64,000 nt of DNA, from contig NZ_LFZW01000001.1 of assembly GCF_001183985.1 (NCBI RefSeq), forward strand, positions 683,620 through 747,619, written 5' to 3'. The notes beneath the pieces were generated by a model that was not told where the DNA came from, did not search any database, and saw nothing but the letters and a program-made list of their open reading frames with translations. Source of the DNA: Peribacillus loiseleuriae. Its GTDB lineage: Bacteria > Bacillota > Bacilli > Bacillales > DSM-1321. Both the position numbers and the translations under genes were made by a program. Below, piece by piece: positions 45,539-50,610 of the stretch (position 1 is the first letter of the stretch; the number at the start of each line of letters is the position of its first letter).

Positions 45539-45569
45539 TGAACTGACCCAATAAAGTTAGACAAATATT

Positions 45570-46379
45570 TTAAGCAGCCTCTAAGATCTGAGTTCGGTAT
45601 TCTACCGGGCTCAGGTCTTCTAGTTTTGCCTTCATGCGCTTATGGTGGTAATACTCGATATATTCTTCTAATTCCTTTTCAAAGTGCGCCATGCTTTCAA
45701 ACTCTTGTAAATAAAGCAGTTCAGACTTTAATAAGCCAAAGAAATTTTCGATGACTGCATTATCCAAGCAGTTGCCCTTACGGGACATACTTTGCGTTAT
45801 CTGGTGCTCTTGTAATGTTTTTTGATATTTTCTCATCTGATAATGCCAGCCTTGATCAGAATGAAGAATGACTTCATCTCCTGGTTGAAGGCGCTGCACA
45901 GCTTCGTCTAACATATCACCTACAAGTTGATAGACCGGGCGATTCATGACTTTATATGCGAGGATTTCACTATTACACAAATCAAGAACAGGTGACAAAT
46001 AACGTTTTTCTCCAAAGAGATGGAATTCAGTTACGTCTGTTACCCATTTTTGATTCATTTTATCTGCCTTAAAATCACGTTGTAATACATTAGGAGCGAT
46101 ATTTCCGATGTTTCCTTTATAAGAACGATACTTCTTCATACGGACCATACATTTTAAGCCGATTTCATTCATCAAGCGATTAATGGTCTTTGGATCATGC
46201 GTAAAACCGCATTTCTTTAGTTCTTTTGTGATGCGACGGTAACCATATCGACCCTTATGTTCGTGAAAAATCTGCTTGATCGCTTCTTTAACCGATTCAT
46301 ATTTATCGATTGGATCCAATCGGTTTTCCCAGTAGTAATATGTGCTGCGTGGAATGCCCGCGACTTTAACTAAATCCAC
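45570..46379 (-). CDS. IS3-family transposase OrfB (DDE integrase domain)
   Basis: The integrase half of an IS3 transposase: [13 protein letters not shown], then [20 protein letters not shown] and [15 protein letters not shown]. The DDE triad can be read as D in [18 protein letters not shown] in [12 protein letters not shown] and E in [19 protein letters not shown]. It is translated by -1 frameshift from orfA: the minus-strand frame continues upstream in phase ([20 protein letters not shown]) past the orfA stop, without a good start of its own. GTG 46379 is only the first in-frame start codon, not a supported start. The slip site is probably the A-rich stretch GAAAAATTAC near 46435-46445. Confidence 0.92.
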
Positions 46380-46408
46380 GATCTCGTATTGTTCCTTTAG
46401 TTCAAAAA

Positions 46409-46933
46409 TTACTTGCGCTTTGATTTTATTTGTAATTTTTCTTGTAACTGAACTAAAGTGTTTAACTTTTTTAAATAAGCATTTTCCATTTCCAGATGCT
46501 TGATTTTCGCTTGTAAGGCTTCTACCGAGACTTCAGCTTGGATTGGTTTTTGTGATTCAATGTTCTTCGTTTCTTTTTTCATGGATGGACGCCCCTTTTT
46601 CTTCGGTTCTAGTGCGTCCAATCCTCCTGTCTTAAGCAACTGCTCCCACTGATAAACGGTACTAGGGGAAGTAATATTAAATGTGCTTGCCGTTTCTCGA
46701 GGAGACGCACCTGTTTCGTTCATAAAATTGAGTACGTCTAGTTTAAACTCAGATGAGTAGCTTGTATAGCCTTTCTTAAAACCTTTTTCTCCTTGTGCTT
46801 CAAATAATTTCACCCAAGTAATGACCAGAGATTTAGCTGCGCCAATACTTTCTGCAATGGTTTTATAGCTTTCTTTTCCAGATAAATAGCGTTCCACCGC
46901 TTGTAATTTAACTTCTACTGTATATTTAGACAT
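46409..46933 (-). CDS. IS3-family transposase OrfA (HTH protein)
   Basis: 174 residues. Two helix-turn-helix regions are visible: [20 protein letters not shown] with [20 protein letters not shown], and [20 protein letters not shown] with [20 protein letters not shown]-terminal leucine-rich coiled coil ([20 protein letters not shown]) mediates multimerisation. OrfA binds the inverted repeats and is the N-terminal half of the OrfAB fusion made by frameshifting. ATG 46933 follows GCGGGGTG; the alternative start five codons upstream has none. Confidence 0.9.
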
Positions 46934-47014
46934 AAAAACACCCCGCAAATGTTAGTTGGTGTCTAACATTTGCGGGTCAGTTCAAAACTAGGGTCTCTTC
47001 CAAATAATCTAATA

Positions 47015-50000
47015 TTAACGAAGAAGTTGTAGAACTCCCTGAGGCTGCTGGTTTGCTTGAGCCAACATTGCTTGTGCTGCTTGTGAAAGGATTGAGTTCT
47101 TAGTTTGTTCCATCATTTCTTTCGCCATCGTGCGAAACATTTACTTTCATAAATGACTAGACTATATCTTCACCCTCTAATTTCTTAGTAGGGGTCGGGA
47201 ACTTCGGATTCACAATGCTGATGTACATTGCTTCACCTACGGATTTCATCACCATAGCATTCGCCTTAGATGGTCTATCCTAGTCGTTGAACCTTCTCCA
47301 CTCTTTCGAGACAGGAGCTTGGCTGCTGATTGCCCAATCTCGCTTCTTTTCAACCATTCACGCTTGCCGTTTCCAGCTACGTTGTAGGGAAGTGAGTTTT
47401 AGAGGTTTCCAGCAATTCACCCGATTATAATCCAAGCCGTTACCAGCCAGGACGACTGTGCTTATTCCTGCAATTAAGCAGCTTCAGCATAATCTACGTC
47501 ACGGATACGAGATTCCGCAGCAGTTAGGTTTTCAGAAGATGCATTTAGATTGTTGATCGTATGATCTAAACGGTTTTGGAATGCACCTAATTTAGAACGC
47601 TCAGTAGATACTTTTTCAATTGCATTATTAATTACCTTGATTGCTGCAGTAGCATTTTCATTTGTACTTATATCTAATGCAGCTTCTCCGACTGTTCCAT
47701 CTGTTACATCACTTGTAGACGTAAATTTCGCTGTATAATCAGTCCCATTATCGTTTACCGTAATTGAACCATTAACACCACCAACAATATCTAATGCCGA
47801 TGAGCGCATATCGTTGATACCTAAACTCATTTTTTGATTTGTGTTGGCTCCAATTTGTAAATTAGCAGTAAAGCCTGTTGACTCAATAGTACTAAAATCT
47901 GCAGTAAGAGGTGCTTCACCATTTGCAGCTACTTTTTGTTCTAATTTTAATGTATCACCAGTAACTGTTACATTATAATTTGCTTTTAAAGCTTGTAATG
48001 CTGCTGAACTGTTAGAATCTGCATTTATAATTTGATTTTTCAATTCTTCAGCAACCTGTTTTGCTGTACCATTTTGACCAGCTAATGTAATTTCAGCATT
48101 ACCAATTTTCACTTTTGACCCTACATCAAGTGCTTCTGCTTTAATTTCATAAGATTGTGGGACTGCAGCACCATTTAATCGATTATCTGCATTTTTACCA
48201 ATTTTAATATCAGCAGTTGTAAGGTTCGTTCCACTTGCTGTTCTTTCTGTAAATTGCAGCGTGTCGCCAGTTACTTCAACAGCGTATTTTGCTTGTAAGT
48301 CCCGTAAATTTTGTGAGCTAGTACTAGTTGCATTAGTGATGGCATCTGCGATATTTTGAGCAGTAGCACTTTCCGTTGCTCCTACTACAAAATCACCAGT
48401 TAATCCAGCTGATGCATTTGCACCGCCTGCCAACAATAACGTGTCACCAATTTTTAACACATCACCATTAGCAAGGTTATCTGTAATTTTAAATTCACTT
48501 ACGCCTTTAACATCACCAACATTAGCAGCAGTAACTGTTGGAGCAGTAGTTGATCCACTAGCCGCTTTTTCTGTCAATACAACACGATTGTCACTAAAGA
48601 ATTGTGAATCTGCTTTAGTTGCAGTATATTTACTATTCACATCTGCATTAATTGCAGCATTTAAAGCGTCGATTGAAGCGGATGTATCCGCACCAATTAC
48701 AAATTCATTAGCCCCTGCTGCGCCGAGAGCACCAGAACCTTTACCTGTTTCGATTGCTGTGTACTTTGTTCCACCAATATCTACAGAGTCGCCTACAGAG
48801 AAGTTTTTATTGACATCAAAGTTATATTCACCCTTAACTGCAGCTTGATTAGCTACATCAATACCAACTACATCTGCCATTGTATCTCCACTAGCTGTTT
48901 TTTCTTGAAGTACAATCGTATCTAAATCTGTTGCTAAACCAGTTCCTGCAATACCGGCTCCACCAACATTTTGGTTTACTGCATCAAATTTACCACTCAA
49001 ATCAGTATTAGCATTAATAGCTGCTAATAAGTTGTCAGCTGTCTCATTGATATCTGCACCCACTACAAATCCAGTACCATCAGTCGTTCCACCTGCAGCT
49101 CTTACTTCAAAATCTTGTCCTGCAATTGTTATCTTTTGCCCTACTTCAAAATTATTTGCAATCTCAAATTTATATTGACCTACCTGAGGTAGAGCTTTAT
49201 CTACAACGACACCTGTAGTGTAATCAGCTTTATTAACATCAATTGAAGCTACATTTTGTGTAATTGTGATACTATTTGTATCTGCCCCCCATGCTGGACT
49301 ACCTACAGTTGCAGTATAATCAGCACTTACAGTTGCATTAGCGTTAAGTGCTGACATTAAGTTATTTACAGTTCCTTCGATATCTGCACCGATATTAAAC
49401 TCAGTACCACTAGCAGCACCTGAAGTTTTTGCTGTAAACGTCTGACCACCTATTGTAATTGTATCTCCATCAGTAAACTGACTTTTCACTTCAAAAGTGT
49501 ATACTGCTTTTTCTGTACCAGTACCTGCAGTTGCTTCATGAGCAGCATTAATAGCCCCTGTACCACCTGCATTACTTACTTTCACTTCAGTTAAATCTGA
49601 TCCGATTGCTCCAGCAGTTGCTGCTAATTTACTATCAGTTGTTGTATTTACCGTTCCTAAGCTCAATGAACCTGCTTTTACGCTTGTTTTAGTTTCTGAT
49701 ACATTACTGAGTGCACCTGTTCCAGCTCCAGCACTAATATCCAACGTATCTGTTCCAGTTTTACCTGTTGATGCAAAAGGAGTTGTAGTAACTGCTAAGT
49801 TACCAGTACTTGTTGTTTTTGATCCACCATCAAGTAGTTTTTGCGTGTTAAACTCCGTTGTATTACCAATACGGTTAATTTCAGAAGTTAACTGGTTCAT
49901 TTCTTTTTGAATTTCATCACGGTCACCCGTTGTATTCGTATCGTTCGCTGATTGAGTAGCTAATTCACGCATACGTTGAAGGATGCTGTGTGTTTCACTT

Positions 50001-50239
50001 AATGCTCCTTCTGCTGTTTGAATCAGAGAGATACCATCTTGAGCATTTTTACTAGCTTGACCCAACCCGCGAATCTGTCCACGCATTTTCTCAGAAATTG
50101 CAAGACCAGCTGCATCGTCCCCAGCTTTGTTAATACGAAGACCTGAAGCCAATTTCTCCATTGATTTTGATTGATTCGTAGTTGCACTGTTCAACTGACG
50201 GTGTGTGTTAAGTGCTGCAATGTTGTGGTTAATTCTCAT
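47015..50239 (-). CDS. hag: Giant flagellin, split by a group I intron
   Basis: Exon 1 (50239-47477, 921 codons) and exon 2 (47137-47015, 40 codons plus stop) encode a 961-residue flagellin. The conserved D0/D1 N-terminus is [20 protein letters not shown] to residue 135; the C-terminal D1 is [20 protein letters not shown] and [13 protein letters not shown]. Exon 2 supplies the missing D0 end, [20 protein letters not shown] then [18 protein letters not shown]. Common Bacillus flagellins have 270-400 residues, so this middle is much enlarged. It contains about five degenerate modules starting near residues 246, 355, 471, 581 and 696, each with G-D-x-I-x-IGG, a (V/I)GAD-x-x-x-T-x-x-N-L segment and EKxASG. 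Without splicing, a TAA at the intron start truncates the protein. GGAGGTAATGAGAA precedes the ATG. Confidence 0.93.
47138..47476 (-). ncRNA. Group I self-splicing intron in the flagellin gene
   Basis: The 339-nt insertion separates AEAA from FRTMAKEMM of an otherwise continuous flagellin. On the minus strand it has the four core elements in order: P, AATTGCTGGAAACC (47417-47404); Q, AATCAGCAGCC (47331-47321); R, GTTCAACGACTAGGATA (47292-47276); S, AAGATATAGTC (47170-47160). P pairs with Q (TGCTG/CAGCA) and R with S (GACTA/TAGTC) as P4 and P7 require. The exon ends in U and the intron in G, as expected. No homing endonuclease is encoded. Group I introns are known in flagellin genes of thermophilic Bacillus relatives. 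Splice-site placement is by protein continuity. Confidence 0.93.
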
Positions 50240-50424: not shown

Positions 50425-50610
50425 CTAGACCTTTTTTGTCATTTCTAAGGCCATATTGTTTTCTTCCCATAACTCTCCACGAACAATAGAAATATGCTTC
50501 GGTGCTTCAATCGCTAAGCGTAAATGGCCTTCATCGCTTCTAATGACCTTTACGATAATGTTGTTGTCAATCATTATATATTCCCCAGGTCTTCTCCCTA
50601 ACACGAGCAT
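50425..50610 (-). CDS. csrA: Carbon storage regulator CsrA (copy 1)
   Basis: A 61-residue RNA-binding dimer: MLVLGRRPGEYIMIDNNIIV, then VIRSDEGHLRLAIEAPKHIS and IVRGELWEE. The RNA-contact residues L4, R6, and R44-equivalent in VRGE are present. CsrA represses flagellin translation in Bacillus by binding GGA sites of the hag leader. Here it is directly upstream of the flagellin gene on the same strand (about 185 bp), the usual arrangement, although the fliW antagonist gene is not in the window. AAGGGGATGAGCC is the ribosome binding site. A GC-rich palindromic stretch of repeated CTAGACC/CTAGGTC units (50412-50430) overlaps its 3' end. Confidence 0.95.
   Translation of the reverse strand: MLVLGRRPGEYIMIDNNIIVKVIRSDEGHLRLAIEAPKHISIVRGELWEENNMALEMTKKV

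Follow-up and report, generated by a model that had tools for sequence, protein, structure and literature searches.

The element at 47129-47491 (-) of the window, as we call the 64,000-nucleotide stretch of Peribacillus loiseleuriae DNA analysed here, is by all the signs in its sequence a catalytic group I intron inserted in a flagellin gene; it probably joins the exons as RDVD|MAKEMM, with an unspliced product that would carry an ssrA-like tail and probably be degraded by ClpXP. In the mechanism that we propose, the 5′ end of the intron doubles as coding sequence, since P1 and its loop would supply a five-residue tail followed by a stop codon (Table 1). Removal of the intron would yield the full flagellin, with a predicted length of 953 residues. 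When the intron is retained, the ribosome would read YAEAA and stop, giving a product without the C-terminal D0 helix and with Ala-Ala at its end, and this truncated flagellin would be degraded by ClpXP before it could jam export or assembly. The Rfam match gave us the family of the intron, and comparison with relatives its boundaries, the conservation of the tail and its likeness to tmRNA tags, and from these we infer splicing, translation of the unspliced message and degron activity.

Table 1 Features of the flagellin gene and its intron (positions are those of the window)
Feature	Position	Strand	Remarks
Exon 1 of the flagellin gene	47492..50239	(-)	916 codons, end ..RIRDVD; 5′ splice site after U47492
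Exon 2 of the flagellin gene	47015..47128	(-)	37 residues and stop; C-terminal D0 part
Group I intron, corrected boundaries	47129..47491	(-)	363 nt; from Rfam, comparison of P1 and P9.0, and empty-site relatives
In-frame tail Y A E A A and TAA stop	47474..47491	(-)	In P1 and its loop; ssrA-like C-terminus
Small hairpin CUGC/GCAG within the P1 loop	47468..47481	(-)	Over tail codons 4-5
P1 3′ strand with internal guide GUC (AAGCACAGUC)	47454..47463	(-)	G47456 pairs with the splice-site U47492
P element (GAAUUGCUGGAAAC)	47405..47418	(-)	Rfam alignment
Q element (AAUCAGCAGCCAAG)	47318..47331	(-)	Rfam alignment
R element (GUUCAACGACUA)	47281..47292	(-)	Contained in the core pattern used for finding relatives
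S element (AAGAUAUAGUC)	47160..47170	(-)	Rfam alignment
P9 hairpin (CAUUUAUGAAAGUAAAUG)	47138..47155	(-)	End point of the Rfam model and of the first-pass annotation
P9.0 3′ strand AC and terminal G47129	47129..47131	(-)	AC pairs with GU at 47156-47157

The Rfam group I intron family RF00028 was found to match the window at 47486-47138 (-) with 86.1 bits (E-value 1.6e-20; gathering score 50) over the full model (1-253), and no other Rfam model reached its gathering score within the 64 kb. The host open reading frame is a flagellin by Pfam (Flagellin_N 4.5e-49, Flagellin_C 1.5e-16). A first-pass annotation of this DNA had called a group I intron in the 3′-terminal part of a large flagellin gene, with the P, Q, R and S elements in order, no encoded endonuclease and a covariance-model search as a check; that search gave the match above the gathering score, its alignment located all four elements, and the intron contains no ORF of at least 80 aa, so that these calls stand.

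Introns were found at two positions in flagellin genes: site 1, which is that of the window, and site 2, which lies closer to the stop codon and harbours an intron in the other flagellin gene of the host and in many relatives. Our script found 81 distinct site-1 introns among the loci, window included, and because all of these share descent the counts drawn from them are not independent. The first-pass annotation had the unspliced message stop at the first intron codon. The frame in fact continues for five codons before the stop (six in 8 of the 81), which in the window adds YAEAA. The tails read YALAA in 45 introns, YAEAA in 6, YTEAA in 4, YAFAA, YDLAAA and YVLSAA in 3 each, with other sequences in the rest. 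Ala-Ala forms the end in 77 of the 81, including all eight six-codon tails, the exceptions being YALAS, YALTA, YALVA and YAFVA; LAA is the end in 50, the window having Glu in place of Leu. A later search returned 15 site-1 tails from 30 loci, five already in the set and ten new, and eight of these ten end in Ala-Ala (exceptions YALVA and YASVA).

These tails were compared with the tags encoded by tmRNA genes, which were detected in all 61 genomes of the order examined. Tags were predicted on 30 loci of these genomes, one prediction (L209) looking wrong, and each of the 29 tags read ends in Ala-Ala. Nine of the 29 end in YALAA, the tail of the 45 introns just mentioned, and Leu, Phe or Val stands third from the end in 28, the remaining tag ending in YSLAAA. 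The tag of the host itself is GKQNNNFAFAA, with the end FAFAA. An intron tail differs from an ssrA tag in that it is encoded in the mRNA itself, the ssrA tag being added in trans by tmRNA. As a control, we read those group I introns of the genus outside flagellin genes for which the locus was available: none of these nine has an Ala-Ala tail, the set being small, with approximate 5′ ends and with two members lacking a long upstream frame. According to the available excerpt of PMC7652416, E. coli ClpXP robustly degrades GFP-YALAA and does not so degrade GFP-LAA, and Ala-Ala at the terminus contributes most, with Leu and Tyr having a modest effect. This order of importance, as the excerpt gives it, is mirrored by the order of conservation in the introns. 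Because the tails match the tmRNA tags of the order and GFP-YALAA is a known ClpXP substrate, the P1 loop probably encodes a degron, and it seems to us fairly likely, from these sequence comparisons, that the putative degron serves to destroy flagellin lacking its D0 part.

The main confounder of this reading is the small hairpin that covers the Ala codons and could by itself hold the sequence GCN GCN. To separate constraint on protein from constraint on RNA, we counted changes on a tree built from the core of the intron, leaving out P1. Positions 1, 2 and 3 of the last tail codon changed 1, 0 and 35 times (81 rows), and those of the penultimate codon 1, 2 and 9 times (81 tails). Among the 73 five-codon rows, codon 2 gave 6, 4 and 9 changes and codon 3 gave 6, 7 and 4, amino-acid changes being among them at both; codon 2, which lies within P1, varies in residue (A, T, D, V, S) with its pair mostly kept.

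An alternative with the same intron and the same splice sites leaves the tail without any fate: the stop codon would clear ribosomes from the catalytic core, and Ala-Ala would be a by-product of the hairpin. The part of PMC3984707 that we drew on views in-frame stops in bacterial group I introns in this way, as stalling the ribosome and letting the intron fold. In keeping with it, a generous scan found all four CUGC/GCAG pairs in 63 of the 81 introns, of which 60 keep Ala-Ala. Leu at tail position 3 is always written TTA (53 of 53 five-codon tails, no synonymous variant), which looks more like a constraint on nucleotides than on protein, and the penultimate codon shows no asymmetry between the hairpin arms (second position 2 changes vs 1, silent third 6 vs 6). 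Against it, of the 18 introns whose hairpin is incomplete, 17 retain Ala-Ala. Where the linker measures 15 nt (50 introns), no change fell on the first two positions of the last codon, both of which are paired, as against 2 and 5 changes at their partners; where it measures 17 nt (12 introns), the asymmetry is nearly absent (0 and 0 vs 0 and 1). A tail without fate would also have to coincide with the end of the tmRNA tag encoded by many genomes in the same order. We consider this alternative unlikely, and retain the degron as the preferred reading of the tail.

The distribution of the introns bears on another interpretation, in which the intron acts mainly as a thermosensor, warmth raising splicing and so switching motility, with the tail secondary. 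The exact 21-nt core pattern was found at 116 loci at least, every one of these 116 being no further than 450 nt from flagellin coding sequence; the 80 named matches listed comprise many Bacillales genera and a few Clostridia. A 19-nt core with at most one mismatch was present in 133 of 397 genomes of the order, a count that includes introns of other genes, since 24 of the 30 loci fetched from this search were flagellin by rule. Many carriers among the matches listed belong to genera that are not known as thermophiles, and the host genus is presumably mesophilic. Flagellin group I introns of thermophilic Bacillus and Geobacillus were described by Hayakawa and Ishizuka (2009, 2012), whose work we cite through passages of PMC3984707 and PMC4853749. 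The latter (2016), in the passage at hand, terms the flagellin intron of thermophiles IA2, with an activity that depends on temperature and may regulate flagellin. The first-pass annotation was right that such introns are known, but its phrase "in thermophilic Bacillus relatives" is too narrow for at least 116 loci, of which the 80 listed by name span many Bacillales genera. A temperature-dependent ribozyme is compatible with the degron reading of the tail, and we regard temperature sensing as the main function of the intron as distinctly improbable.

The window gene is not the only flagellin gene of the host. A second one (L004 8491-10329 (-) for exon 1; G000 C1 about 4703700-4706300) sits in a flagellar cluster, with FliW, FlgL and FlgK recognised by eye, and bears introns at both sites, its site-1 tail being YALAA, the commonest. 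The window gene is distant from this cluster. It encodes (window 47474-50239) a flagellin of unusual size, with a long, repetitive-looking middle flanked by conserved ends. Directly upstream lies a csrA-like ORF (MLVLGRRPGEYIMI.., 50425-50610 (-), by eye). Beyond the limits of the gene on the other side, transposase-like ORFs at 45570-46948 belong to an IS element, of IS3 type by eye, at 45539-46984, and transcription of the flagellin gene would read into these transposase genes, which share its strand. The right end of the IS abuts half of an apparent flagellin terminator (AAACTAGGGTCTCTTCC). An IStron was rejected here, the IS lying outside the gene and the intron holding no transposase.

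It could thus be asked whether the window copy is a decaying spare, a silent flagellin gene with an inactive intron. The IS against an apparent half-terminator, the distance from the flagellar cluster with the paralogue and the E for L in the tail would all fit such decay. Both exons are nonetheless open, the core elements, P1, P9.0 and the terminal G are intact, and the csrA-like ORF is in place upstream; in view of these features we judge decay to be rather improbable.

The boundaries of the intron were set by comparison with flagellin genes in which site 1 is empty. Within the genus, flagellin matches comprised 48 rows in 34 of 36 genomes, which represent the two host genes and 45 others. 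By rule, 28 of the 45 are intronless, 10 have an intron at site 2, 2 at site 1 and 3 at both, and 2 were left unclassified (one of them being locus L201); the host adds the window gene, with site 1 occupied, and one gene with both sites occupied. The empty site reads RD[VTA]D and then directly M in 24 intronless genes of the genus, the other 4 of the 28 falling outside the output of the script used for this listing, and genes with only a site-2 intron read RDVDMAKEMM or RDTDMAKTMM across site 1. Because both kinds of gene read through without YAEAAFRT, the joint is RDVD|MAKEMM, with splice sites GAU|UAUGC at the 5′ and CACG|AUGGCG at the 3′ end of the window intron. What the first-pass annotation had said of the C-terminal D0 part, namely that it depends on splicing, is supported.

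P1 of site-1 introns is formed by a guide with the end GUC, to which the GAU of the exon and the opening bases of the intron pair. The three exon pairs of P1, including the U.G at the 5′ splice site, are formed in 81 of 81 introns. On the intron side, pairs 4-6 covary, their variation being compensated: among 27 distinct rows, pair 4 is formed in 25 (shuffle mean 22.3; 13 of 2000 shuffles reach this), pair 5 in 26 (mean 18.5; 0 of 2000) and pair 6 in 26 (mean 21.1; 1 of 2000). Pair 7 gives little signal (20 of 27 rows vs a shuffle mean of 19.0). The pair at the second intron base (window 47490 vs 47458) is a near-invariant mismatch, A.C in 78 of the 81, A.G in 2 and A-U in 1. The minimum-energy fold of the window RNA recovers the same P1 and loop hairpin unprompted, the fold of the whole window RNA not being unusually stable (z -1.52).

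The 3′ end was placed by P9.0, both pairs of which are present in 137 of 148 introns when sites 1 and 2 are pooled. At site 2 alone they are present in 66 of 76, compared with 46.7 on average and 53 at most in shuffles; eight of the ten misses are GC/CC rows, which pair if the register is shifted by one, an adjustment made after the fact. The last intron base at site 2 is G in 76 of 76, this G not having been required by the search. At site 1, where the search did require a terminal G, the 3′ site was found in 72 of the 81 introns, and no P10 was apparent there by eye. The lengths of these 72 introns, taken modulo 3 (0/1/2), are spread 20/30/22, so divisibility by 3 is no property of the family. 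The splice sites given in the first-pass annotation, 47138-47476, which remove exactly 339 nt (the corrected intron being 363 nt) and join AEAA to FRTMAKEMM, do keep the reading frame and share the end of the Rfam match at 47138, but they are very improbable and were rejected, because the joint would keep YAEAAFRT, which the empty-site flagellins lack, the base ahead of the 5′ site, said to be U, is U in no more than 34 of 73 five-codon-tail introns (C 14, G 13, A 12), the P1 that Rfam draws there has four non-standard pairs, and P9.0 with the terminal G lies 9 nt beyond.

Introns at site 2 also begin with coding sequence. Their start, GCU|CA[AG], is found in 71 of the 71 introns with a usable upstream exon (of 76 rows, 4 lacked a readable exon 2 and 1 was misread). 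The first 14 intron codons and a stop encode a flagellin C-terminus, with one sequence in 25 introns, another in 8 and others in the remainder, and exon 3, after the intron, encodes a C-terminus of equal length, one sequence accounting for 52 of 76 rows. A 5′ site following CCU (P|QG), or one following the internal stop, was rejected because U is unconserved there (CCG, CCC, ACT); GCU|CA[AG] was preferred since it is conserved in 71 of 71 and makes the internal and exon-3 tails equal in length. P1 at site 2 was judged by eye alone, with three exon pairs formed by GCU with GGC or GGU. Counted on the tree of the core, codon changes in the internal tail number 213 silent vs 68 amino-acid (94/37/231 by codon position) and those in the exon-3 tail 154 vs 22 (61/18/153); within VLQLL the internal tail shows one amino-acid change and the exon-3 tail none. 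These patterns suggest that both ends are translated and under selection at the protein level, and therefore that the spliced and the unspliced message may both be needed. Within one gene the two tails agree, on average, at 29.0 of 42 nucleotides yet at 11.8 of 14 residues, so that gene conversion alone is unlikely to have produced the twin C-termini.

The introns of the two sites belong to lineages that are largely distinct, with 4 label changes on the tree vs about 50 in shuffles, and both sites are occupied in 28 loci of the set. Their spread may involve an endonuclease encoded outside the intron. Beside the second host flagellin, and opposite to it in direction, a free-standing LAGLIDADG_2 gene was identified (8.7e-17; L004 6095-6946 (+)); no LAGLIDADG match is found beside the window flagellin, where the IS element lies instead. 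Relatives of this gene recur across genera just downstream of 32 of 82 site-2 flagellins and 13 of 51 site-1-only flagellins, and all 51 LAGLIDADG matches are antiparallel to the flagellin. The remaining 6 of these 51 lie at loci classed as without intron (6 of 38), which we take as misread because all were fetched through the intron core pattern. The matches beside site-1-only genes are distant (21-35% identity), and Pfam gave LAGLIDADG beside the two that were checked (3.8e-27, 5.1e-32). Among genes with no less than 850 nt of DNA downstream, and with the six misread loci left out, a LAGLIDADG neighbour was present at 39 of 118 that bear introns and at none of 25 that lack them (Fisher p 2.9e-4), a link that is an association only, since the intronless side consists of genus genes and the two sides thus differ in taxonomy. 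Within the genus it stands beside 7 of 18 intron-bearing rows, at any downstream length. A phage source was also considered: the intron matched 178 phage records, but in none did the match cover more than 80% of the intron. Taken together, the comparisons incline us, somewhat tentatively, to the general reading that the 5′ ends of Bacillales flagellin introns are coding cassettes, a degron at site 1 and, at site 2, a complete spare C-terminus through which spliced and unspliced messages would yield two full isoforms of flagellin, and that a free-standing endonuclease nearby aided the spread of the introns.

Self-splicing introns are usually regarded as neutral passengers, with an endonuclease as their only coding cargo. 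Group I introns in flagellin genes are already known; for such coding tails at their 5′ ends we found no report in the open-licence PMC literature searched. The present introns resemble those of Hayakawa and Ishizuka, as summarised in the passages cited above, in being group I (IA2) introns of flagellin genes, splicing having been proposed there to govern flagellin; they differ from them, as so described, in that two sites are defined here and that the 5′ ends encode protein tails. In yeast HAC1, as presented in the excerpt of PMC5114014, protein made from unspliced message ends in a short degron encoded by the 5′ end of the intron. The site-1 tail is alike in its place and in ending an unspliced product, with a degron that is here putative. 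The yeast case, in that source's account, combines Ire1-dependent splicing with a proteasome-type pathway in a eukaryote, and here a ribozyme and an ssrA-like tag would operate in a bacterium. Similarly, the surface-layer gene intron C.te.I1 of Clostridium tetani, in the text seen of PMC3919590, is self-splicing and gives isoforms of a surface protein, one of them from unspliced message; it is a group II intron with four alternative reactions, whereas at site 2 of flagellin the intron itself contains the coding sequence of one alternative end. IStrons (CdISt1 and kin), as far as the descriptions consulted go, share with the window a group I intron near an IS; unlike in them, the transposase is here in a separate element outside the gene and not in the intron.

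If the tails work as proposed, introns carry peptides that act upon splicing failure, the site-1 tail marking a broken host protein for destruction and the site-2 tail completing the host protein. Ribozyme splicing would then be linked to bacterial protein quality control, and introns that police or diversify the protein of their host would offer a bacterial counterpart to the HAC1 degron. This would also explain how introns persist in a gene expressed as strongly as flagellin, and it makes testable the old question of whether intron retention in bacteria can yield useful protein.

One further intron position was observed in the genus, within the first 500 nt of locus L201 (genome G002), where a third flagellin site near the N-terminus is preceded by AQDG. 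The unspliced tail of this N-terminal intron, RLEMPL, is not tag-like, and L201 also carries a site-1 intron.
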